Shown piece after piece: positions 2,820 to 58,300 of a stretch of 64,000 bases of DNA (position 1 is the first letter of the stretch; each line of letters begins with the position of its first letter). The stretch is from Candidatus Zixiibacteriota bacterium (lineage in GTDB: Bacteria; Zixibacteria; MSB-5A5; DG-27), in assembly GCA_030605835.1 (NCBI GenBank), contig JAUWHO010000021.1, forward strand, positions 1-64,000, written 5' to 3'. The position numbers and the translations under genes are program-made. The notes under the pieces are model-generated. The model worked only from the letters and a program-made list of their open reading frames with translations, was not told the DNA's origin and searched no databases.

Positions 2820-3203
2820 CTACAACTCCTGCCGGCTCCTGAAAAACACCAGATGGCTCTGACATCGGCAGTCCGAGGCTCCAAAGCCAGGGGCAATTAC
2901 GTTGGCCTCAACTTTGCAGGCAACCCTGCGAGCTAAATCGCACTCAGACAGACCCGAATTCTTAAAGAGTCTGACCTCGTGAATCTCCGCTTTCGCCAGA
3001 AGGTAATCTATATGCCAGAACCTCTTTTTGACCTTGGAGCGATGTCTGTGAATGCGGGAGGAAAGACCGCGCTTAGCACTGCCGGTGTAAACATAAAACC
3101 CCGCGGGAAAATCAAAAGTCCCTAACCCACCGACCTCGATCCTCAACTTCCCGGGAAGATGTAGAACCAGCTGATAGAGACCGGAATTCTCTCTTTTTTT
3201 CAA
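2820..3203 (-). CDS. DUF123 / GIY-YIG nuclease family protein
   Basis: Protein of 127 aa matching the DUF123 branch of the GIY-YIG superfamily. It shows the GLYQL start, VGGLG, GFYVYTGSA with GL and SRIHRH following (Y-V-Y-T-G-S-A is the modified GIY-YIG core), and FWHIDYLL. A C-terminal Cys-rich segment (C-x-C-x-S-H) is typical of the family. The function is unknown; the domain is often found near or fused to endonuclease III. Its start overlaps the stop of the upstream PLP-enzyme gene by 4 bp, so the two are translationally coupled. Confidence 0.85.
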   Translation of the reverse strand: MKKRENSGLYQLVLHLPGKLRIEVGGLGTFDFPAGFYVYTGSAKRGLSSRIHRHRSKVKKRFWHIDYLLAKAEIHEVRLFKNSGLSECDLARRVACKVEANVIAPGFGASDCRCQSHLVFFRSRQEL

Positions 3204-4416: not shown

Positions 4417-5949
4417 TCAATCAGTGAATGCCTGTCCACTTGAGTAACGTTGTTCGTTCTGGGAGGACAAATAGATTGCTGATATCCCCGTCACCGGGCA
4501 TTTGGTCTCGCAAATGCCGCAGCCGATACACAGTTCCTCCACCACATAAGGTTGCTTCACAACCTTCCTCTCCCCGCTGGCCAAGATAACTTCTGCCTCT
4601 TTGAACTTTATAGCCTTGTCCGGGGTGGGGCAGTGCTCCTCGCAGACGATACAGTCTTGATTCTTATAATATGGGAGACAACGATCCTTGTCAATGAAGG
4701 CAAGCCCGATCTTGGTTTTCTTTTTGGTTTCAACATCAAGCGTGTGTATGGCTCCGGTGGGGCAGACCTCGGTGCACATGACGCAGTTATACTCGCAGTA
4801 ACCGGAGCGAGGCGAGCCAATCGGGGTAAGAAAACCCTGAACCCCAGCCTCGTGAATGGCCGGCTGCAGGAAATCTCCGGAGGTGGAGCAAACCTTTATA
4901 CACTGGTGGCAACGGATACATCTATCCAGAAACTCCTCCTCCGGCAAACTCCCCGGAGGACGAATCAGACGCATCGATCTCTCTTTAGTCTGAAATTCGG
5001 TTTTCAGCACCCCGGCGGTCACCAAGCCCAAAGCCGTTGCCCCTAAGAACTTCCTCCGGGAAAGGCTGAACCCAGACGCAAAAGCGGGAGTGACAAACCT
5101 CAACTCGTTTGCTTCATAGGCACAGACCTCCACACAGTTGAAGCACTGGATACATTCGATGTCGGTGGTCTTGAAGGGGTCGGCCTCGATGGCGTTGGCC
5201 TTGCAGACCTTCTGACACTCCAGACATTCGGTGCATTTTTCGTTGACCACCCTTTTCAGCATCTGGAATTTGGAGAGTAAAGCCAGCAACGCCCCCAGGG
5301 GACAGAGTCCTTGACACCAGAAGCGCCGAGTCAGAAATCCTAAAGCCAGCACCGTCCCGAAGAAGAGAGAGATCAAAAGAGAGGCCCGAAATGTTAACAC
5401 CTCCACCGGCAGGAGTGAGTTCACCAAGTAATTCTGAACCTGAGAAAGAGGACTCTGCAACGACTCAAACCGAAAGAGAAATCCAAAGATGACATAGAAG
5501 ACGATGTTCAGGATCGGCAGAAGCACTGTGACCGCGAAACGGTTCAACAGCGGAAGGGGATCCAGAAACCAAAAAACCTGCGTTCCCAAAATCGCCGTGA
5601 AGAGAAATAGAATGAGCAGAAAGTATTTGAGATTATGGTTCTTCCTGAACTTGATCCGATTGCGGTTTGTGACTAGCCGATCGAAGAAATCTAAGAATGT
5701 TCCCAGGGGACAAACCCATCCGCAGAAGACCCGCCCCAGAGGGATTGTCAAGAGAATCACGATTAAGGATAGAAGTCCGGTGGCGATAAAGGCTCGATTG
5801 GAGATCATCGCCGAAAGCCACGTCAAGGGGTCGAGCCTGAAAAAGAGATCCACCGGAAGCAGCGAGGTCAGAGGATAGCTGGCGACGAAGAAAAGGGCAA
5901 AGAATAGCAGGAAGAAAATTATCTGGGAGGCGATGCGCAGTCTTCGCAT
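4417..5949 (-). CDS. NapH/NapG-like fusion: membrane polyferredoxin with internal Tat-like segment
   Basis: Protein of 510 aa. The N-terminal half has about five membrane helices and two NapH-type C-x3-CPLG motifs (FCGWVCPLG, FWCQGLCPLG), then two 4Fe-4S sites (CTECLECQKVC, CIQCFNCVEVC). At about residue 297 there is a Tat-like SRRKFLG motif followed by a hydrophobic stretch, as at the start of NapG/periplasmic ferredoxins. The C-terminal half has four further Cys clusters (CIRCHQCIKVC, CEYNCVMCTEVC, a C-x8-C-x2-C-x3-C cluster and CIGCGICETKC). It thus looks like a NapH-type quinol-oxidising membrane unit fused to a NapG-type exported ferredoxin. The next gene downstream in the window belongs to another pathway, while the DUF362 gene ends immediately before this start, so those two are coupled. 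Likely role: electron transfer across the membrane; the terminal acceptor is unknown. Confidence 0.85.
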   Translation of the reverse strand: MRRLRIASQIIFFLLFFALFFVASYPLTSLLPVDLFFRLDPLTWLSAMISNRAFIATGLLSLIVILLTIPLGRVFCGWVCPLGTFLDFFDRLVTNRNRIKFRKNHNLKYFLLILFLFTAILGTQVFWFLDPLPLLNRFAVTVLLPILNIVFYVIFGFLFRFESLQSPLSQVQNYLVNSLLPVEVLTFRASLLISLFFGTVLALGFLTRRFWCQGLCPLGALLALLSKFQMLKRVVNEKCTECLECQKVCKANAIEADPFKTTDIECIQCFNCVEVCAYEANELRFVTPAFASGFSLSRRKFLGATALGLVTAGVLKTEFQTKERSMRLIRPPGSLPEEEFLDRCIRCHQCIKVCSTSGDFLQPAIHEAGVQGFLTPIGSPRSGYCEYNCVMCTEVCPTGAIHTLDVETKKKTKIGLAFIDKDRCLPYYKNQDCIVCEEHCPTPDKAIKFKEAEVILASGERKVVKQPYVVEELCIGCGICETKCPVTGISAIYLSSQNEQRYSSGQAFTD

Positions 5950-14581: not shown

Positions 14582-14850
14582 CCCGTGCACCCACTTTCGA
14601 TCCGCCCCGACCTGCACTTTTGGGGCAGACAGCTCCGGCCAGGCGACCCTACGGCACCTCCGAGGCTTCGCTTACGGCTGCTACCTTCCGGTCCTGACCG
14701 GGTTGGGCGAGCTCGGATTGCGCAGGACCTGACCATCATCGCTACTTACCAAAAAAGAGACAAGCCGGTTTTAGACCTCCGGTGGGAATTCAACCCCGGT
14801 ATAGCGGATTCCGGGTTACAGGGCACCGCTAACTCCCCATCTAGCACGGG
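14582..14850 (-). ncRNA. ffs: Signal recognition particle RNA, large Alu-containing type
   Basis: On the minus strand the S-domain core GGTCAGGACCGGAAGGTAGC is followed by AGCCGTAAG, which matches the SRP54-binding loop consensus. The 5' part has GTGCCCTGTAACCC with a second hairpin, as in the Alu domain of Bacillus-type SRP RNA. The termini CCCGTGC and GCACGGG pair and define about 269 nt, close to the 271 nt of B. subtilis scRNA. It lies just upstream of dnaX, a common location. Exact ends are inferred from the terminal pairing. Confidence 0.92.
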
Positions 14851-15580: not shown

Positions 15581-17797
15581 TCACGCCAGTTGGTTTCTCT
15601 TTCTGATAATCCACTCCAAAGCCAAGCAGATCACGGCAAGCCCTAAAAGCCAGGGTTGGTTCCACAACTGCACCTCGGATTTCTTCACAACTGTCTGAAC
15701 CTCAAAATCAAGTAGCAGGAACAGACTGTCGACCTCCCCCGGGGCGAAAAAACCTCCTCCGGAGAGCTCCCCCAGTCTCTTGAGAAGCTCAAAGTCGGCA
15801 GCCAAGTTCTGCTCCTCCAGACTGTACGCCTCTACCTCGAACTTGCTACCGAACTGGCCCAACCTCTCCCCTCGCCAGAAAGCCTCCGCGCTGAAGGTAT
15901 ATTTTCCCGGAGATAGGGAGGGGACTATCGTCTTGTAGCGGCCCGGCTCCTGCTCGACTAAGTTCAATCTCAACTTCTCAATCTTATCAGCGCCGGTTTC
16001 TTTGAAGATTTCGATTCTCGATTCCACCGCTTCTAAAGGTTGAAAGCTCTCGTCGTAGAACTTCCCCAGGATTGAGATCTCCTCCCCGTAGCTGTAAACC
16101 CTGTTTTCCGAATAGATGTTCATCCTCTCCATGTCAAGGGGGGTGGCCAGCCACCTCACGGCATTGGTGAAAAACTGCCGGTAACTCTCTTTTTCCACTT
16201 CGAAACCATGCGGGAGGAAGTCCCATCGCCATAGGGGGAAGACCGTGACTGCCATTGTCTTGCCGCCGTATCGTTCGCCCACCACCACCGCGGGGAGCTC
16301 CCTTGGGGGCTTGACCGCCAGCGCACAGGTCAACAGGGCCACCGCCCGGGGCTCTCTGGGCTTCAGACTGCCGGGGACTATGAATTCGAAAGGTGGCACC
16401 TCACTCCACAAATCGCGGTTTGTTTTCTCGTCTTCTGAGAGCCGCGTGATAGGATGGAGAGAACCATCGGGGGTCAAGCAGAGAGAGAAAGGACCCTTGA
16501 CAATCTCTTCCCTGAGCGCGAAATCTAGGGGCAGCAATTCGCTCATAACGGAAGATGCTTTGGCACTCGACAGATCCTCTCCCAGGAGGAAGAGTATCGA
16601 ATGACCGCTCTGCAGGTATCTCTTCAAAACTTCCTCTCTTCCCGAAAGTTGCCGATACCCTGGATCGACATATATCAGGATGTCATACTCGGTGAGGGCT
16701 TCCAATGTTGCCGGGAAACTTCCTGAGAGGAAACCGCCGTCAGGACCGTAGACCACCGGTTTGATATCTAACTTCGTGTTTTCCTCTAAGGTTCTCTTCA
16801 GAAAAGCAAACTCCCAGCCCGGTCGAGAGCTGACCAGGAGTACCTTCAGCTTACTTTTCAGAACTTCAATGGAGAAGGAGCGATAGTTGTTCTTGGTAAC
16901 CTTCTCTCCTTTTTGGGGTGGAATTGAGACCTGAAAGAACATCGTTCCGGTCTCCTGTGGAGTGAATTCAATTTCGCCGCTTTGCTCTCCCGGCTGATCG
17001 ATTATCAAATCTGTCCTGCCGTAAAGCTTTCCTCCGGATTTTAAGAACACCGGCGCCCGCCCCTTCCGGGGGGAGGTCACCTTCACTGTGAACTCCACCT
17101 TCGTGGGGATCTGGGAGTAGGCAACCTCGGGGAAGCTCACCTCCCCGAAGGCCACATCTAACGGCGGCTGGGGATCTCCGATCCCCACCGCATAAACCGG
17201 CACCCCCAGACGGGAAGCGACCACCAGGGGGTCGATTCCGGAGTTGTTGCCACCATCGGAGAGAATCACGATCGCGCTCAGATTCTCATCTGAGCGCCGC
17301 TCCTTCAGCTGCACCAAGGCCTCCCCCATGGAGGTCCTCACTCCTTGAGCGGTCAGGGAATCGAGCTCCACTCTAAGCCTGTTCAGGGAATCGGAGAAGG
17401 TCCAGTAAGAGAGTTTGGCCTCCTCCGGGAGCTGGGCTGTCTCGAATTCTGTCAATACACCTCTTGCCACCTCCAGTCTAGTCGTTGCAAGGCCCTCCCC
17501 GCCGGAGGGGAGTCCGACTTCGTCGGAGAAATTCATTGAGGTCGAGGTGTCCACTAGCACCGCTATCTCCGCAGGCTTGGTGACCTTGTCGCTGAAGCTC
17601 AAGAGGGGTTGCCCCAGAGCGAAGATGACCGCCAAGATGGCGAGGCAGCGGAGAGCCACTAACACTATTCTCGTGCTCCTCTTGAGTGGAGCTTCACTGC
17701 GACGGTAGAGGAAATACGACCACGCCAGCAAGAAAAAAAGGACCAGAAAGAGCAGGAGAAACCTATCCGACTGAAAACTGAGATCTAACCCTGACAT
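15581..17797 (-). CDS. Membrane VWA-domain protein with GATase1-like region
   Basis: Protein of 738 aa. Two N-terminal helices (about 10-30 and 42-62) are followed by a von Willebrand A domain starting IAVLVDTSTSMNF (MIDAS DxSxS, about 78-90), with the later D-G-G-N-N-S site. Ig-like segments and a GATase1-like region (LLVSSRPGWE, D-I-L-I-Y-V-D-P-G) follow, with a C-terminal helix. The layout is known from large membrane proteins next to MoxR/BatA-type genes, but none is present here. Just after the MIDAS a segment SDEVGLPSGG is encoded by a double-hairpin palindrome (17495-17527) and looks like an in-frame insertion. Function unknown, probably envelope-related. Confidence 0.8.
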   Translation of the reverse strand: MSGLDLSFQSDRFLLLFLVLFFLLAWSYFLYRRSEAPLKRSTRIVLVALRCLAILAVIFALGQPLLSFSDKVTKPAEIAVLVDTSTSMNFSDEVGLPSGGEGLATTRLEVARGVLTEFETAQLPEEAKLSYWTFSDSLNRLRVELDSLTAQGVRTSMGEALVQLKERRSDENLSAIVILSDGGNNSGIDPLVVASRLGVPVYAVGIGDPQPPLDVAFGEVSFPEVAYSQIPTKVEFTVKVTSPRKGRAPVFLKSGGKLYGRTDLIIDQPGEQSGEIEFTPQETGTMFFQVSIPPQKGEKVTKNNYRSFSIEVLKSKLKVLLVSSRPGWEFAFLKRTLEENTKLDIKPVVYGPDGGFLSGSFPATLEALTEYDILIYVDPGYRQLSGREEVLKRYLQSGHSILFLLGEDLSSAKASSVMSELLPLDFALREEIVKGPFSLCLTPDGSLHPITRLSEDEKTNRDLWSEVPPFEFIVPGSLKPREPRAVALLTCALAVKPPRELPAVVVGERYGGKTMAVTVFPLWRWDFLPHGFEVEKESYRQFFTNAVRWLATPLDMERMNIYSENRVYSYGEEISILGKFYDESFQPLEAVESRIEIFKETGADKIEKLRLNLVEQEPGRYKTIVPSLSPGKYTFSAEAFWRGERLGQFGSKFEVEAYSLEEQNLAADFELLKRLGELSGGGFFAPGEVDSLFLLLDFEVQTVVKKSEVQLWNQPWLLGLAVICLALEWIIRKRNQLA
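17495..17527 (+). repeat. Intragenic double-hairpin palindrome (copy 1)
   Basis: CTCCCC-gccgga-GGGGAG is followed directly by TCCGAC-ttc-GTCGGA. On the coding strand it reads S-D-E-V-G-L-P-S-G-G in frame with the VWA protein. It shares the second hairpin and the peptide with elements in the permease-HflK gene and in cmk. Confidence 0.8.
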
Positions 17798-24440: not shown

Positions 24441-24507
24441 CCCCTGGCGGAGGCCAGGGGGCTACCCCGTTTGGTTCACCCACCGGAGGCGGGTCGCCTC
24501 CGGCGAC
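24441..24507 (+). repeat. Two adjacent palindromes (CCCCTGGC-ggag-GCCAGGGG and CCGGAGGCG-ggt-CGCCTCCGG)
   Basis: First stem 24441-24460. The second is 24483-24503 and overlaps the core GTCGCC-tcc-GGCGAC (24493-24507), which also occurs in the rpsA terminator (53914-53930). They lie between convergent genes. Confidence 0.7.
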
Positions 24508-24576
24508 TGTTCATAGTTAACAGTTCACGGATGATTCCCTGTCTCCTGTCCCCTGTTTCCTGTTATATTATCTTCC
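24507..24576 (+). repeat. Heptamer array (10 units, two unit types in phase)
   Basis: CTGTTCA, TAGTTAA, CAGTTCA and CGGATGA run in phase into TTCCCTG, TCTCCTG, TCCCCTG, TTTCCTG, TTATATT and ATCTTCC. The complement of the HflK stop codon (24568-24570) lies in the last two units. Confidence 0.8.
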
Positions 24577-26394: not shown

Positions 26395-28500
26395 CTACTT
26401 CGGGGGAGAAGATCGGCTTTTCTCCTTTTCGCTAGCCTTCTTTCCCCCAGAGGGGGATCCGACTATGTCGGACAACCTCCCACCCTCCAGTATCCACAGG
26501 TCTAAATTGCCGGGGGTATCCCGGCCCGGCTTTATGTATTTCTTGACTTTGGGGAGCACTGACTCCATCGTTTCCAGGTAGAGCCTCCTCTCGGTTATCC
26601 ACGGTGCCTTTAGGTATTCCCGATTCAGTGCCAGAAAACTTTCGGCCTCACCGGTGGCCACCTTCACTTTCCTGACCTTGAAAGCCTCCGCCTCCTCAAT
26701 CAATCTGGCGGAATCCCCCCGAGCCAAGTTCACAGTCTCCTGGTAGTAAATCTCGCCCTGATTTATCTTGGTGCTTTTGTCCTCGGAGGCGCTGGCGACA
26801 TCGCGGAAGGCGTAATGAACATGCTGAGGTGCGTGGACATCCAAAAGCTTAAAGGTTATAATCTCTACTCCTGACCTCAAGCCGTCCAGGCGAGACTGCA
26901 AGTTCTCAGCTGCCAGGGCCTCAGTTTGGGCCCGACCGAGGGTGAGCAGGATATCGATCGGCTCCTCCGCCACGAAATCTATTAAAGTCGAGATGGCCTG
27001 ATCCTTCACCAGTGTGGAGCAATCGTAAACCTTGTAAAGAAAATCCAGGGGGTCTTTGACGCGATAATGAACCACGTAATTGATATCGACGATATTCTCG
27101 TCGCCGGTTATGAAGAAGGATTCGGCCTCAACTCTGTCTCCCCGGGGACTGGCAATCCCGGTAGTGACTTCGCCTCGGGCGGTGTCCACCCTGACGGCGC
27201 GAAAACCGAGGTTGATGGTGCGCACCCGGTCCAGCGCAACCTTTCTGGATACATCGATGGGGTATGGAAACTTGAGATGTAAGCCCGGAGGGACTTCCGC
27301 GGTGACCACCTTTCCAAACCTCTCCACCATCCCCACCTCCCCCGGCTGTACTGTGAAGAACATCGTTGAGAAAAACGCTATCACCAACAGAGCTGCAACC
27401 ATCTTAACGCCGAGCTTGAGGTTGAATCTGAATCCCAGGCATTTCTGGATGAAATCATTCACGACCACGAACTCCTTGGGGGGCTTCTGCCTTTTGAAAC
27501 TGACGTATGCTAAGAACAGAAAGCCTGCCAGAGCCGCTATCTCGATGAAATCCGGAATTACCTCTGCGGCCTTCCCCATGGTGGTGACCGGATCGACCCC
27601 GCCGAGAGCGTAGATCAGATTTACAAATCCTCCCAAGATCAAACTTACCAGAGCTATGGAGGCCAGATAGATTGCCACCACCTTCTTTCCGAACTCCTTG
27701 GTCAGAACCCCTAAGGAGGCGATGTTGGTGGCAGGGCCAACAAGCAGGAAAACCAAAGCCGCCCCGGGGTTTAAGCCCTTCAAAATCAGTGCCGCCGCAA
27801 TCGGAGTGGAGGCGGTGGCGCAGATATACAGAGGTATGCCGATAACCAACATCAAAAGCATCGGCAGAAGCCCACCGCCCAGATATCTTGTCACGAAATC
27901 AGGAGGTAGCAAAGCCCCCAAGAGTCCCGACAGTATCAAACCGAAAACCAGCCAGTAAGAGATCTCGTCGAACAGGTTAACGAAGGCGTAACGAAAACCC
28001 GCCTTGACGCTCTTGCGGGTTTCCCATTCCTCCTGGGGAGACTGAGCCGTGGATTCTCCGGCGCCCTCAACTGGTTCCCCCTCGTCGGGGACCAAACGCT
28101 CCACCGCGACTCCAGCGGTTAGGGCTGTGATCAAAGCCGCAAAGGGTCGAAAGATGGTCATGGTGACGTCCATCAGTCCGTAGGTTATGGCGATGGAGTC
28201 GACGCTGGTCTCCGGCGTGGAAATCAGAAACGACAGCGTTGCCCCCTTGCCAGCCCCCTTCCTCCTTAAGGCCAGAGCCGTGGGTAAAGTGGAGCAGGAA
28301 CATAAGGGCAGAGGAATCCCGAAAAGAGAAGCCAGGAATATCGACTTGAAGCCCTTTCTACCTAAATGCCGGAAGACGAAGGCGGGAGAGATGAAGGCGT
28401 TCAAGATTCCGGCAACTGCAAAACCAAACAGGATGAAAAGAGAGGCCACTTTGAAGATCGACCAGGTCTCTCGTATGAATGTTACCAGAAACTCAACCAT
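26395..28500 (-). CDS. Fusion of SO_0444/ArsP-like permease and HflK
   Basis: Protein of 701 aa. Residues 1-345 are a polytopic permease with a Cys-Ser-Cys-Ser site (PLPLCSCSTLP, about 62-72), SFLISTPETSVDS and a second-half repeat PLYICATASTPIAAALILKG, as in SO_0444/DUF318 metal-efflux permeases. Residues about 370-690 are a complete HflK: helix, TVQPGEVGMVERFGKV, V-P-P-G-L-H-L-K, ITGDENIVDINYVVHYRVKDP, coiled coil and RRLYLETMESVLPKV. The join near residue 345 is in one clean frame. Near the C-terminus SDIVGSPSGG is encoded by a double-hairpin palindrome. It heads an operon with HflC and HflK and suggests metal export tied to FtsH-regulating SPFH rings. Confidence 0.87.
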   Translation of the reverse strand: MVEFLVTFIRETWSIFKVASLFILFGFAVAGILNAFISPAFVFRHLGRKGFKSIFLASLFGIPLPLCSCSTLPTALALRRKGAGKGATLSFLISTPETSVDSIAITYGLMDVTMTIFRPFAALITALTAGVAVERLVPDEGEPVEGAGESTAQSPQEEWETRKSVKAGFRYAFVNLFDEISYWLVFGLILSGLLGALLPPDFVTRYLGGGLLPMLLMLVIGIPLYICATASTPIAAALILKGLNPGAALVFLLVGPATNIASLGVLTKEFGKKVVAIYLASIALVSLILGGFVNLIYALGGVDPVTTMGKAAEVIPDFIEIAALAGFLFLAYVSFKRQKPPKEFVVVNDFIQKCLGFRFNLKLGVKMVAALLVIAFFSTMFFTVQPGEVGMVERFGKVVTAEVPPGLHLKFPYPIDVSRKVALDRVRTINLGFRAVRVDTARGEVTTGIASPRGDRVEAESFFITGDENIVDINYVVHYRVKDPLDFLYKVYDCSTLVKDQAISTLIDFVAEEPIDILLTLGRAQTEALAAENLQSRLDGLRSGVEIITFKLLDVHAPQHVHYAFRDVASASEDKSTKINQGEIYYQETVNLARGDSARLIEEAEAFKVRKVKVATGEAESFLALNREYLKAPWITERRLYLETMESVLPKVKKYIKPGRDTPGNLDLWILEGGRLSDIVGSPSGGKKASEKEKSRSSPPK
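26444..26472 (+). repeat. Intragenic double-hairpin palindrome (copy 2)
   Basis: CCCCC-aga-GGGGG followed by A and TCCGAC-tat-GTCGGA. It encodes S-D-I-V-G-S-P-S-G-G in the permease-HflK tail. The 16-bp second half is identical to the copy in cmk. Confidence 0.85.
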
Positions 28501-40226: not shown

Positions 40227-42200
40227 CTACTTCTCCTCCCAGCTCACCGAAGCGTAGCCCTTGACCGGGGGCAACTGAATGCCAAAAGGCAGAAGGCCAC
40301 CAGTCTGGCTCAGCCTCGGATCGTGGTTCAATGTGATGTGTCCGCCGGCGCAAATGAGTGACTCATTACGACTTACCAGGCCCCCGTTCATTACAAATTC
40401 CTCCTCCATCCAGCCGGCCACGGCGTGATTGGAGAATAAGATGCCGTCGATGGCGCCGACGCGGAAGTCCGCAAGGTCGCTGTAATTATTGATGCCGTTG
40501 GGGATGTTATGGTAATTGCTGGAATTGAAGGAGGCGTCGAAGGCAATGTCGTCATTGTAGTTATATGGGTCGTCATAGGCCCCATCACCGTCTACGTCCT
40601 CTCCACTTCCCGGTACCACTCTCCAACCGGAGGGGACTGAAACAGCTCCCGCAATTATCTGCAGGTCAAGTGTCTGCCTTTCCCCGGTGGATTCGTCGTA
40701 AAGCTCCACGGTCCAGTACCCGTCCATCTCCTTTTCAGAAGGGTTGTAGGGATCCGATTGGTTAGTGAGTGTACCGTAAACACGATCGGTTCCCACGTCC
40801 TCACAACCATCATTACGAGGGTCCCCCAGCCATCCCCCCTGGCCGACTATGAACTTCTGCCACCAGGAGTCGGGATGGTTCCCGGTAATGATGCTCTCCC
40901 GGGTCATGAAGGCAACTATGTCTTTATCCTGGTTGGCCTCCAGCCAGCTGTTGACCCGGACCTTATACTCTTCCGGGGTCTCGTGGCCGTAATCGAACGT
41001 GGGTCTCTCCGAGGGGGGATCTTCATAAGCTATGGTCCCGGCAATGTATGTGTTGCGCCCCACGTAGAACGCTCCCTGACCACCGATATTTCCTCTTATG
41101 ACAAGGTCGCCGGTCACCGCCAGCGGCCCCTCTATGATTATGGGGTTGGCGTCAGTGCCGACCAAGACCACGTTGCCGGTCTCGCCGACGTCATCGCCGT
41201 AACAACCGTCGATGACCACCTCGCTAGCCTGGAGGGTGCCGTTCCCGTTGAGATCCTGTCCGGCTCGGCCAGCGGGAAGCTCCAGCTCTCCTCTTGCCAG
41301 CATCAGATAATAGGGGCTCAACTCCTGGATATTGCCGTCGCCGTCTATATCTCCGGCATCGTTGAGATTCGGCATGTCGGCATAGGGAAGCTCCGTCCCT
41401 GCGTAGCTGTGGCGGTTTTCTTCATATTGAGCCATCCCCTGATAGTTAGAACCGTCGAGAGGGAATACATAACCTCCGGCGTAGACTCCGCCGTTGTCCA
41501 TCGGTTCGCCGTCAATGGGGCTGTAGCGAGGGTTGCCATTAACCGTCAACCATCCGTTGACGAGGTCGTAATGTCCGTTGCAGCCGGTATTACCATTTAT
41601 AGTCGCCCCCCCGTTGGGATAGCCCGCCCACCAACCGAAATGATTCATGAAATAGGCGTAGTCGAAAGCGTCAGAGGGTTCGATCCCAAACCTCATCACT
41701 CCGACGACGGTCCTGTTTTCAGACCCACCTCCCGAAACTGAGTGAGACTCCACAGTCACGTCGCGGCAATCGAAGTACGGTGGTGCTGCCCCAGGGTCGG
41801 TTACGCTCGTAACAACAACGGTGTAACTTCCCTGACCGGAGACGTCAACATCCTGGTAAATAGTGTCTCCCTGTAAGGAATTTATCCACCCGAAGAGGTT
41901 CGTCAGGGGGGAAATATTCTCATCGTTGAAACTCGGCAAGATATACTCGTATACCGCCCTCTGTAAACCGGCCTCGGCCAGATAGAGCGACTGGGTTGAG
42001 CGCTTCTCGCTCCCGGAGATGTCCAGATCGATGCTGGTTGTAGTGATGGCTGCAATCCCGATGAAAGAGAGCATAATCATAATCCCCAGGGCGATCAGAA
42101 GCGCCGCCCCTTTTTGGTCGATCAAAAACAACCCTGATGGGTTTTCCCGCAACTCTGAACGCCAAATCCATCGATTACAACTTCTTCTCAGATAGCTCAT
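40227..42200 (-). CDS. Giant PilX-like minor pilin with calcium loops (copy 1)
   Basis: About 657 aa from the ATG at 42200, which has GGAGG with 6-nt spacing. N-terminal helix G-A-A-L-L-I-A-L-G-I-M-I-M-L (PilX_N type) followed by E-K-R-S-T-Q-S-L-Y-L-A-E-A-G-L-Q. The long beta-rich ectodomain has EF-hand/dockerin-like loops: D-I-D-G-D-G-N-I-Q-E, D-L-N-G-N-G-T-L and D-V-D-G-D-G-A-Y-D-D. It ends in V-K-G-Y-A-S-V-S-W-E-E-K. A close paralog follows upstream (42287), with long near-identical DNA blocks. Probably a pilus-tip or surface adhesin; function inferred from context. Confidence 0.8.
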   Translation of the reverse strand: MSYLRRSCNRWIWRSELRENPSGLFLIDQKGAALLIALGIMIMLSFIGIAAITTTSIDLDISGSEKRSTQSLYLAEAGLQRAVYEYILPSFNDENISPLTNLFGWINSLQGDTIYQDVDVSGQGSYTVVVTSVTDPGAAPPYFDCRDVTVESHSVSGGGSENRTVVGVMRFGIEPSDAFDYAYFMNHFGWWAGYPNGGATINGNTGCNGHYDLVNGWLTVNGNPRYSPIDGEPMDNGGVYAGGYVFPLDGSNYQGMAQYEENRHSYAGTELPYADMPNLNDAGDIDGDGNIQELSPYYLMLARGELELPAGRAGQDLNGNGTLQASEVVIDGCYGDDVGETGNVVLVGTDANPIIIEGPLAVTGDLVIRGNIGGQGAFYVGRNTYIAGTIAYEDPPSERPTFDYGHETPEEYKVRVNSWLEANQDKDIVAFMTRESIITGNHPDSWWQKFIVGQGGWLGDPRNDGCEDVGTDRVYGTLTNQSDPYNPSEKEMDGYWTVELYDESTGERQTLDLQIIAGAVSVPSGWRVVPGSGEDVDGDGAYDDPYNYNDDIAFDASFNSSNYHNIPNGINNYSDLADFRVGAIDGILFSNHAVAGWMEEEFVMNGGLVSRNESLICAGGHITLNHDPRLSQTGGLLPFGIQLPPVKGYASVSWEEK

Positions 42201-42286
42201 AACCAACCTCCTTCTCTGGCCCACCTTTTAGTTCTCTTCTCTTCTCTTCTCTCCTCTCCACAGCTCAATCTAGCCCCCCTCCCGGT

Positions 42287-44215
42287 TTAGTCCTCCTCCC
42301 AGCTCACCGAAGCGTAGCCCTTGACTCGGGGCAGGTAGATGCCAAAAGGCGGACAGGTGCCGCCGGTTCCAGTCAGGCGCTCATCGTGATTCAAGGTAAT
42401 GTGTCCGCCGGCGACGATTAGACACTCGTTCCGACCTATCAAAGCTCCGTCCACGGTACAGCCTTCTTCGAGCCAGCCGGCTACCGTGTGGTTGGTGTAT
42501 AGGGCCCCGTCAATCCCGTCTACGGTGAAGTCTGCCAGGTCGCGATAATGGCTGACACCATCAGGCATGTTGTGGAAATTGGTGGAATTGAAGCGTGCGC
42601 CGAAGTCGATGTCGTCATTGTAGTTATATGGGTCGTCATAGGCCCCATCACCGTCTACGTCCTCTCCGCTTCCCGGTACCACTCTCCAACCGGAGGGGAC
42701 TGAGACACCTCCCGCAATTATCTGTAGGTCAAGTGTCTGCCTTTCCCCGGTGGACTCATTGTAAAGCTGCACCGTCCAGTAGCTGTCCCTCTCCTTCTCA
42801 GAAGGACTGTAAGGGTCGGTTTCATTATCCATGGTACCGAAGACGCGGTCGGTCCCGACGTCCTCGCGACCGTCGTTACGATAGTCCCCCAGCCACCCCC
42901 CGCGGCCGGTGATGTATTTCTGCCACCAGGAGTCGGGATGATTACCCAGGATGATGCTCTCCCGGGTCATGAAGCCCACCAGGTCCTTATCTTCATTGGC
43001 CTCCAGCCAGCTGTTGACCCGGGCCTTGTACTCTTCCGGGGTTTCGTGACCGTAGTCGAAGGTGGGCCTCTCCGAGGGGGGATCTTCGTAAGCTATGGTT
43101 CCGGCCACATACGTATTCCGCCCCACGTAGAACGCTCCCTGACCACCGATATTTCCTCTTATGACAAGGTCGCCGGTCACTGCCAGCGGCCCCTCTATGA
43201 TTATGGGATTAGCGTCGGTGCCCACCAGGACAACGTTGCCGGTCTCACCTGCATCATCGCCGTAACATCCGTCGATGACCACCTCGCTCTCCTGGAGGAT
43301 GCCGTCACCATTGGTGTCCTGTCCGGCTCGACCGGCGTCAGGCCCCAGCTCCCCCCGGGCCAGCATCAGATAGTAGGGGTTAAGCTCCTGGATGTTGCCG
43401 TCGTCATCGACGTCCCCGGCATCGTTGAGGTTGGGCATCTCCACGTAGGCGGGGTCGAGAAAGCCGTTGTCAACCCCCCGGTAACTGTGGCGGTTCTCGG
43501 CATACTGGGCCATCCCCTGATACTTGAAACCATCGAGCGGAAAAACAATACCCCCGGCGTAAACTCCGCCGTTGTCCATGGCTTCGCCGTCGATGGGGCT
43601 GTACCGAGGATTACCATTTACGGTGAGCCATCCAGAGATGAGGTCGTGATGTCCGTTGGCTCTGGTATTGCCGTTTATTATCACTCCCCCGTTGGGAAAA
43701 CCGGCCCACCAGCCAAAATGGTTCATAAAATAGGAATAATCGAAAACGCTGGAGGCGTGAACCCCGAACCTCAGCACCTCCACGACGGTGCGGTTCTCGG
43801 AGCCACCCAGAGAAACACCGTGGGACTCCACCGTGACCTCCCGACACTCGAGAAAATACGACATCGATCCGGGGTCGTTGACATCGGTCACTATCACGGT
43901 GTAACCTCCCTGACCGGAGACGTCAACATCCTGGTAAATGGTGTCTCCCTCCAGGGAGTCTATCCATCCGAAGAGGTTGGTCCTGGGAGAGATGTTCTCG
44001 TCGTTGAAGCTGGGCCAGATGTATTCGTATACCGCCCTTTGCAGGCCAGCTTCCGCCAGGTAGAGGGACTGGGTTGAACGTTTTTCGCTTCCGGAAATGT
44101 CGATGTCAATGCTGGTTGTAGTGATGGCTGCAATCCCGATGAGAGAGAGCATCACCATAATTCCCAGGGCCACCAGAAGTGCAGTCCCATTTTGATTTCT
44201 TATTGGTGCTAACAT
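42287..44215 (-). CDS. Giant PilX-like minor pilin with calcium loops (copy 2)
   Basis: Protein of 642 aa, collinear with the 40227 protein over nearly all its length. It shares the same PilX_N helix, the same E-K-R-S-T-Q-S-L-Y-L-A-E-A-G block, calcium loops (D-V-D-D-D-G-N, D-T-N-G-D-G-I, D-V-D-G-D-G-A) and V-K-G-Y-A-S-V-S-W-E-E-D end. Start ATG with CGGAGGTGAG upstream. Differences cluster at a few surface-like sites, so the pair looks like a tandem duplication that is diverging or exchanging segments. Confidence 0.8.
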   Translation of the reverse strand: MLAPIRNQNGTALLVALGIMVMLSLIGIAAITTTSIDIDISGSEKRSTQSLYLAEAGLQRAVYEYIWPSFNDENISPRTNLFGWIDSLEGDTIYQDVDVSGQGGYTVIVTDVNDPGSMSYFLECREVTVESHGVSLGGSENRTVVEVLRFGVHASSVFDYSYFMNHFGWWAGFPNGGVIINGNTRANGHHDLISGWLTVNGNPRYSPIDGEAMDNGGVYAGGIVFPLDGFKYQGMAQYAENRHSYRGVDNGFLDPAYVEMPNLNDAGDVDDDGNIQELNPYYLMLARGELGPDAGRAGQDTNGDGILQESEVVIDGCYGDDAGETGNVVLVGTDANPIIIEGPLAVTGDLVIRGNIGGQGAFYVGRNTYVAGTIAYEDPPSERPTFDYGHETPEEYKARVNSWLEANEDKDLVGFMTRESIILGNHPDSWWQKYITGRGGWLGDYRNDGREDVGTDRVFGTMDNETDPYSPSEKERDSYWTVQLYNESTGERQTLDLQIIAGGVSVPSGWRVVPGSGEDVDGDGAYDDPYNYNDDIDFGARFNSTNFHNMPDGVSHYRDLADFTVDGIDGALYTNHTVAGWLEEGCTVDGALIGRNECLIVAGGHITLNHDERLTGTGGTCPPFGIYLPRVKGYASVSWEED

Positions 44216-57580: not shown

Positions 57581-58300
57581 TCAGGTCACCTCCAAATCGC
57601 TGTTCAGACATCTCAGGACCTCTTCCACCTGCTCCTGGATGGTCAAGTTTGTGGTGTCAACAACCACTGCCTCCTCGGCTTCCAGAAGGGGTGAATTCTC
57701 CCTGTTAGAATCGATCTCATCTCTTTTGGAGAGGTTCTCCCGGATTTCGTCCGGAGAGCGGCTTATCCCTTGAGACTCAAGCTCCAGATACCTCCTTTTG
57801 GTCCTTTCCTTCAGATCGCAGGTCAAAAAGATCTTCACCTCCGCCCCCGGAAAGACCACCGTCCCTATGTCCCGACCTTCGGCCACAATCCCCCCCTCTT
57901 TTCCGCCGGAGGCGGATCCGACTATGTCGGAAGCGAACTCTCTCTGCAGAGCCACCATCGCTCCCCTCACCCCGGGGTAGGCGGAGACCTTGGAGACGGA
58001 ATCGCTGACCTCCGGCGAGCGGATCTGGGAGGTTACTTCCTCACCGTTCAAGAAAACCATCGGCTGTTCATTTTCGAAATTCATTCTGAGGGTCGAATCC
58101 CTGGCCAGCTTCTCTAAGGCCTTCTCGTCATCAAGATCGACCCCGGCTCTTAAGGCCTTAAGGGTTATGGCTCGATACATCGCTCCGGTGTCCAGGTAGA
58201 GGTAACCCAACCTCCCGGCCACCAGGCGTGCAGTGGTGCTCTTGCCGGAGCTGGCGGGTCCGTCGATGGCGATTATTCTAACCTTTTCTCTCTTCAGCAT
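57581..58300 (-). CDS. cmk: Cytidylate kinase with palindrome-encoded insertion
   Basis: Phosphorylates CMP/dCMP. The 239-aa protein has P-loop I-D-G-P-A-S-S-G-K-S-T-T (about 11-22), Y-L-D-T-G-A-M-Y-R, and the V-A-E-G-R-D-I-G-T-V-V-F-P block (about 139-151). Between the conserved helix ending L-Q-R-E-F-A and G-G-I-V-A-E-G-R-D lie residues SDIVGSASGGKE, absent from standard Cmk and encoded by a double-hairpin palindrome (57903-57931). First of the cmk-plsC-ispH-rpsA run. Confidence 0.93.
   Translation of the reverse strand: MLKREKVRIIAIDGPASSGKSTTARLVAGRLGYLYLDTGAMYRAITLKALRAGVDLDDEKALEKLARDSTLRMNFENEQPMVFLNGEEVTSQIRSPEVSDSVSKVSAYPGVRGAMVALQREFASDIVGSASGGKEGGIVAEGRDIGTVVFPGAEVKIFLTCDLKERTKRRYLELESQGISRSPDEIRENLSKRDEIDSNRENSPLLEAEEAVVVDTTNLTIQEQVEEVLRCLNSDLEVT
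57903..57931 (+). repeat. Intragenic double-hairpin palindrome (copy 3)
   Basis: CCGCC-gga-GGCGG, A, TCCGAC-tat-GTCGGA. Its last 16 bp match copy 2 in the permease-HflK gene exactly; the first hairpin matches the core of the intergenic element at 11497. Confidence 0.87.

Follow-up and report, generated by a model that had tools for sequence, protein, structure and literature searches.

A dispersed 30-bp double hairpin inserted between the codons of conserved genes in Candidatus Zixiibacteriota

We investigated a 64,000-nucleotide stretch of contig JAUWHO010000021.1 from a Candidatus Zixiibacteriota bacterium (assembly GCA_030605835.1), hereafter the window, and found that a short palindromic sequence within its cytidylate kinase gene (cmk) belongs to a dispersed family of 30-bp double hairpins. 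With a probability that we put at roughly 0.87, this family is a non-autonomous mobile element that is cleanly inserted near CTTT^AAAG and tolerated within genes as a peptide linker, an estimate that leaves the mobilising step aside. We count as shown the repeat family itself, the covariation of its hairpins, exact insertion, lack of duplication, a target preference, a bias in reading phase, and presence in housekeeping genes. A first-pass annotation of the window, made from its letters alone, had proposed a mobile, protein-compatible repeat family on the basis of three in-gene copies; that proposal is supported, and comparison of filled and empty sites proves that insertion took place.

Structure and spread of the element

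The mobile unit is exactly 30 bp long and consists of two back-to-back hairpins, TCCGCC-nnn-GGCGGA followed directly by TCCGMC-nnn-GKCGGA, each with a 6-bp stem and a 3-nt loop; variants of the first stem occur. The whole is a near-perfect palindrome, and its length is a multiple of three. Among 40 distinct copies, both helix 1 and helix 2 covary, with 96.5% of cells paired and changes on both sides at 10 of the 12 pairs, values that none of 500 shuffles reached. The alternative fold, one long hairpin, was ruled out with zero covariation; thus, the conserved units are the two 15-nt hairpins. Within the window, 3 tandem double hairpins have 11 or more of their 12 Watson-Crick pairs, compared with 0.19 in dinucleotide shuffles, a count that excludes the copy in a gene for a von Willebrand factor A (VWA)-like protein, where the first stem has decayed, and includes a different hairpin pair at 24493. 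In an Rfam search of the window, the curated families matched were those of signal recognition particle (SRP) RNA and tRNA only; the element matches no Rfam family.

Screening the source genome (G000) with the pattern GCGGATCCGMCNNNGKCGGA, allowing up to 3 mismatches, gave 111 matches, whereas the reversed control gave 15. A covariance model derived from 11 copies of this genome identified approximately 32 distinct places at E<1e-3, and 17 at E<1e-7 over the full model. The first-pass annotation had stated that its proposal would fall if the genome held just the three copies of the window, with no conservation of the hairpins; there are dozens, and their stems covary. Many copies are intergenic, and a related form of 28 nt is dispersed as well. 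Since copies from G000 went into the model, independent support comes from other genomes, namely G001, which belongs to the same genus, G008, the single-contig genome G016, and G120 to G123, all four from family f19. Of 133 genomes surveyed across the phylum, 10 gave strong matches (E<=1e-5), distributed over families f1, f8, f12, f13 and f19, and most showed no match at this threshold; all carriers are prokaryotes from a single class. When contigs from 85,000 species were scanned for an exact 17-mer, there were five matches, none with the double hairpin, and the genomes concerned lack a convincing match to the model.

Some intergenic copies are embedded in palindromic repeats of greater length, whose outer stems include CTGGGC...GCCCAG. 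The longer intergenic repeat bounded by this stem and containing the double hairpin was seen in G000 at C9:32082, C9:35250, C37:6865, C51:353036, C17:1722 and C6:66500, and in several of its copies the second loop holds additional hairpins, which points to nested growth. Among 2.9 million viral contigs, the sole exact double-hairpin match is at positions 4886-4915 of IMGVR_UViG_3300037264_002598, immediately upstream of a gene for a Mu Gp37-like tail protein (PF08873). A tail-tube gene is present on this contig as well, and the copy makes a phage vehicle for the element possible. At locus L134 of G001, a tRNA-Ser(cga) gene (997-1082) and a second, 3' tRNA fragment (approximately 3031-3075) lie about 2 kb apart, with a double hairpin abutting the fragment, an arrangement suggestive of an attachment-site duplication around a small integrated element. 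Insertion of the double hairpin into a tRNA at this locus was considered and rejected, given that the adjacent T-arm is that of the 3' fragment, in which ARAGORN finds no tRNA.

Exact insertion, target site and reading phase

The first-pass annotation had predicted that the in-gene copies would prove to be extra segments relative to homologs, and the protein alignments bear this out for the cmk and VWA copies. All 29 aligned relatives of cmk lack exactly the ten residues SDIVGSASGG, as does the solved structure PDB 1q3t (cmk), and the VWA insert, which G000 has in common with G001 (SDIVGPASGG), is lacking in those relatives from other families whose sequence spans the site. The inserts of G016 in SufS (SAKGGSDSVG) and TsaD (PAKGRSASGG) are likewise exactly 10 amino acids long, with nothing at these positions in solved homologs.

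In nucleotide alignments, filled sites exceed empty ones by exactly 30 bases, whose boundaries allow no shift, and nothing is duplicated or lost. The PGI/PMI gene is filled in G000 and empty in G001 (95-97% amino acid identity) as well as in the outgroups G016 and G008, the site reading GACCTC[30]CAACC in G000 and GATCTCCAACC in G001. For TopA, G121 is filled, and G122 (87%) and G123 are empty (GAAATT[30]GAAGC against GAAATTGAAGC in G122); for MtaB, G121 is filled and G120, of the same genus, is empty (TATAAT[30]AAAGA against TATAATAAAGA in G120). A helicase-like gene is filled in G121 and empty in both G120 and G122, and one gene is filled in G122 with an empty counterpart in G120. GlcD is filled in G120 and empty in G123, where the neighbouring sequence is divergent; in the tails of FtsH and POR, the ends are too divergent for a clean empty-site alignment. 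Since the outgroups are empty, these events are insertions.

Across 61 non-redundant sites, the consensus flanks are CTTT before the element and AAAG after it, that is, CTTT^AAAG, in which T occupies position -2 and A position +2, each at 79% of the sites. The empty sites mostly carry the same flank bases already, so these bases constitute the target and are not part of the element. No target-site duplication was detected: a flanking direct repeat of at least 2 nt occurs in 0 of the 61 sites, and the empty sites are clean. At 11 of the 61 sites, mostly intergenic, the sequences on either side pair into an outer stem of 6 bp or more (1.5 with shuffled flanks), which may reflect insertion in hairpin loops or other palindromic repeats.

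Coding copies, whose hosts were assigned by Pfam or close homologs, are strongly biased in phase. Those in phase 0, where the element falls between codons, reside in cmk, KptA, PGI/PMI, a methyltransferase, the VWA protein, SufS and TsaD, in the tails of TyrRS, DivIC, the permease-HflK protein, FtsH and two POR gamma proteins, at the N-terminus of an FRD/SDH-like flavoprotein, and in TopA, MtaB, the helicase-like protein, an IS transposase, GlcD and the G122 protein. Phase 2 is represented by a Big_5 protein, the tail of RsmD and an AhpC/TSA protein, and phase 1 by none. The resulting tally for phases 0, 1 and 2, 20/0/3, differs from the 44/19/37% expected from target preference alone (p=2.8e-5), and the bias persists when only internal sites are counted (13/0/2, p=9e-4). 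The first-pass annotation had the element always in the same orientation and frame relative to its gene, which holds for the three copies in the window; genome-wide, the phase is conserved but both orientations occur, the copies in PGI, the methyltransferase, SufS and TsaD being of the opposite one.

In phase 0, the element reads as S-x-x-x-G-S-x-S-G-G, with 72-73% Ser+Gly+Ala, and because it is near-palindromic, both orientations give the same type of peptide. The excluded reading is approximately 50% Arg/Lys/His, and the non-0 phases give Pro-rich or Arg-rich peptides. Stop codons are not rarer in phase 0, so that peptide tolerance is the likely filter on the phase of coding copies. As cmk has a single match in the G000 assembly (96% complete), the interrupted gene must be functional, barring a second copy in the portion of the genome that the assembly lacks. 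In the two genes with inserts shared by G000 and G001, 13 of 20 insert residues are identical, compared with 87-91% in the rest of the proteins, an excess divergence consistent with tolerance rather than selected function.

Copies in the window

All three in-gene copies that the first-pass annotation reported are present, with their host genes on the minus strand (Table 1). The peptides conform to S-D-x-V-G-x-x-S-G-G, and an exact 16-mer, ATCCGACTATGTCGGA, is indeed common to two of the copies; the boundaries needed adjustment, the exact 30-mers replacing spans of 57903-57931, 26444-26472 and 17495-17527. The first stem of the permease-HflK copy, TCCCCC/GGGGGA, is a compensated variant; homologs of this protein lack an alignable tail with which to compare the site. 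The VWA copy sits directly after a D-T-S-T-S motif. The shorter intergenic pair is a possible further member of the family.

Table 1. Double hairpins and their host genes in the window
Feature	Position	Strand	Reading or evidence
Element in cmk	57902..57931	-	Read as SDIVGSASGG; ten amino acids absent from relatives
Hairpin 1 of the cmk copy, TCCGCC-GGA-GGCGGA	57902..57916		Sequence; helix 1 covariation
Hairpin 2 of the cmk copy, TCCGAC-TAT-GTCGGA	57917..57931		Sequence; helix 2 covariation
Host gene cmk (cytidylate kinase)	57581..58300	-	Pfam PF02224, E=5e-70
Element in C-terminal tail of permease/Band_7 fusion	26443..26472	-	Read as SDIVGSPSGG
Host gene, ArsP_1 permease fused to SPFH/Band_7 (HflK-like)	26395..28500	-	Pfam PF03773 and PF01145
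Element in VWA gene	17498..17527	-	Read as SDEVGLPSGG; first hairpin partly decayed, second intact
Host gene, large membrane protein with VWA-like DxSxS region	15581..17797	-	No Pfam match
Shorter related double hairpin CCACCGGAGGCGGGTCGCCTCCGGCGA, intergenic	24476..24509	+	Covariance-model match, 23.3 bits, E=0.017; weak

Three further features of the window were recorded. The ArsP_1 permease and the Band_7/HflK-like domain occupy a single reading frame, and the relatives found match one part or the other. At 40227-44215, two paralogous genes of approximately 2 kb each adjoin, their DNA being 76-82% identical across long blocks, and a bacterial large SRP RNA is encoded on the minus strand at 14583-14849 (186 bits).

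Mode of movement, alternative explanations and known systems

In the explanation that we favour, the 30-bp hairpin pair inserts at sites like CTTT^AAAG with no duplication and no loss, and insertions within genes survive when placed between codons, in the phase that reads as a soluble Ser/Gly/Ala-rich linker in either orientation. Once inserted, the linker is tolerated rather than selected for function. Each hairpin might be recognised as folded single-stranded DNA by a Y1/HUH-type enzyme acting in trans, by analogy with the IS200/IS605 (Y1/HUH) transposases and with repetitive extragenic palindromic (REP) sequences, our best guess for this step, though less likely than not. The IS200/IS605 transposases, too, cause no duplication and recognise a short target in the flank. 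Several observations weigh against a mobile, tolerated element. We identified no mobilising enzyme: Y1_Tnp (PF01797) genes are present in 12 of 12 tested genomes, carriers and non-carriers alike, a ubiquity that makes association with Y1 transposases uninformative, and no Y1_Tnp gene adjoins a listed copy. In the carrier G016, Y1/HUH copies are located at 1.28, 1.36 and 1.81 Mb. No movement was observed at the population level, and the most closely related genomes compared are members of one genus. Furthermore, the phase tally rests on hand-recognised host open reading frames and Pfam, so that genes broken by out-of-phase insertion would be missed.

With respect to the movement step only, hairpin-driven template switching or palindrome repair during host replication could dispense with a transposase altogether. 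Three observations fit such a process, namely the failure to find a dedicated gene nearby, the near-perfect palindromy of the element and the excess of outer stems in the flanks. On the other side, outer stems are absent from most coding sites, and what is inserted is invariably one 30-bp unit whose ends are fixed and whose copies share a symmetric target, which suggests a specific enzyme; we consider this route possible but less likely than not. A different question is whether selection maintains the inserts for a function, either as flexible linkers or as mRNA hairpins with a regulatory role, so that they are not tolerated selfish DNA. The strong phase bias would fit such selection, as would the VWA and TyrRS insertions, whose frame has been preserved since G000 and G001 diverged. 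The inserts, however, evolve faster than their hosts, the host genes are unrelated, close relatives lack inserts at the same sites, and many copies are intergenic, making a selected role improbable.

Two other possibilities carry still less weight. Transfer of a true Rickettsia palindromic element (RPE), or of an ordinary REP family, into this lineage would account for the in-frame residence in conserved genes and, for REP, the size of the repeat, but the present element differs in size and architecture and lacks the GTAG/CGTC foot, and we regard such a transfer as very improbable. That low-complexity Gly/Ser linkers arose independently through codon usage in a GC-rich genome is a negligible prospect: the peptide is rich in Gly, Ser and Ala, as such linkers would be, but compensatory stem changes, exact 30-bp filled/empty pairs, intergenic copies and the excess of pattern matches over the control refute coincidence.

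The tolerated mobile double hairpin might represent an undescribed class of minimal mobile DNA, a 30-bp hairpin pair that enters a palindromic target as folded single-stranded DNA and is read as a Gly/Ser linker both ways, so that it colonises essential genes without breaking them. We put this forward tentatively, at somewhat less than even odds. The dual reading would follow from a length that is a multiple of three, near-palindromy and codon content. No description of a 30-bp element of this kind was found in the literature searched (open-licence PMC only), and its novelty is accordingly provisional. How such small elements move, how proteins tolerate their insertion, and whether the frame is kept by selection alone or by the design of the element can now be tested. 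For annotation, foreign ten-residue loops in housekeeping enzymes such as cmk, SufS, TsaD and TopA could pass for functional motifs.

The present element matches none of the compared systems on all the defining features tested. Bacterial miniature inverted-repeat transposable elements (Correia, ERIC, RUP) are likewise small and non-autonomous, and in some cases form in-frame fusions with genes, but they span approximately 100-200 bp, have terminal inverted repeats and commonly generate a target-site duplication (PMC2229807), which is lacking here. For the present element, no autonomous parent transposon with shared ends was found. REP sequences, palindromes of 20-40 bp that are often paired and sometimes located inside genes, carry a GTAG or CGTC foot (PMC3733652); the present element has no such foot, and no tyrosine transposase of the kind associated with REP (RAYT) was found next to the listed copies. 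The GC clusters of yeast mitochondria, one of which lies inside the var (rps3) gene, are small GC-rich palindromes that likewise behave as if mobile, but are accompanied by short direct repeats (PMC4478555), unlike the element described here. Double-hairpin elements of fungal mitochondrial DNA, of which four of five in S. octosporus are intergenic and one resides in rnl (PMC10085805; Paquin et al. 2000), resemble it in consisting of two adjacent short GC-rich hairpins that are apparently mobile; they are mitochondrial, whereas the present element occurs in bacterial chromosomes with many in-frame protein insertions.

The closest parallel in behaviour, as the first-pass annotation recognised, is with the RPEs, which are 105-146 bp long, form long stem-loops with terminal inverted repeats and are known from Rickettsia, in frame in 19 genes (PMC2229807; Ogata et al. 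2000). Both are palindromic and dispersed, between as well as inside genes, and both sit in frame in conserved proteins (here cmk, SufS, TsaD, TopA, MtaB and PGI, among others). The likeness does not extend to identity: the present unit is 30 bp long, is built of two tandem hairpins rather than one long stem, encodes a ten-residue insert and belongs to another lineage. In-frame mobile palindromes in conserved proteins are best known from Rickettsia, and a shorter element does the same independently, in an unrelated lineage and in several of its families.
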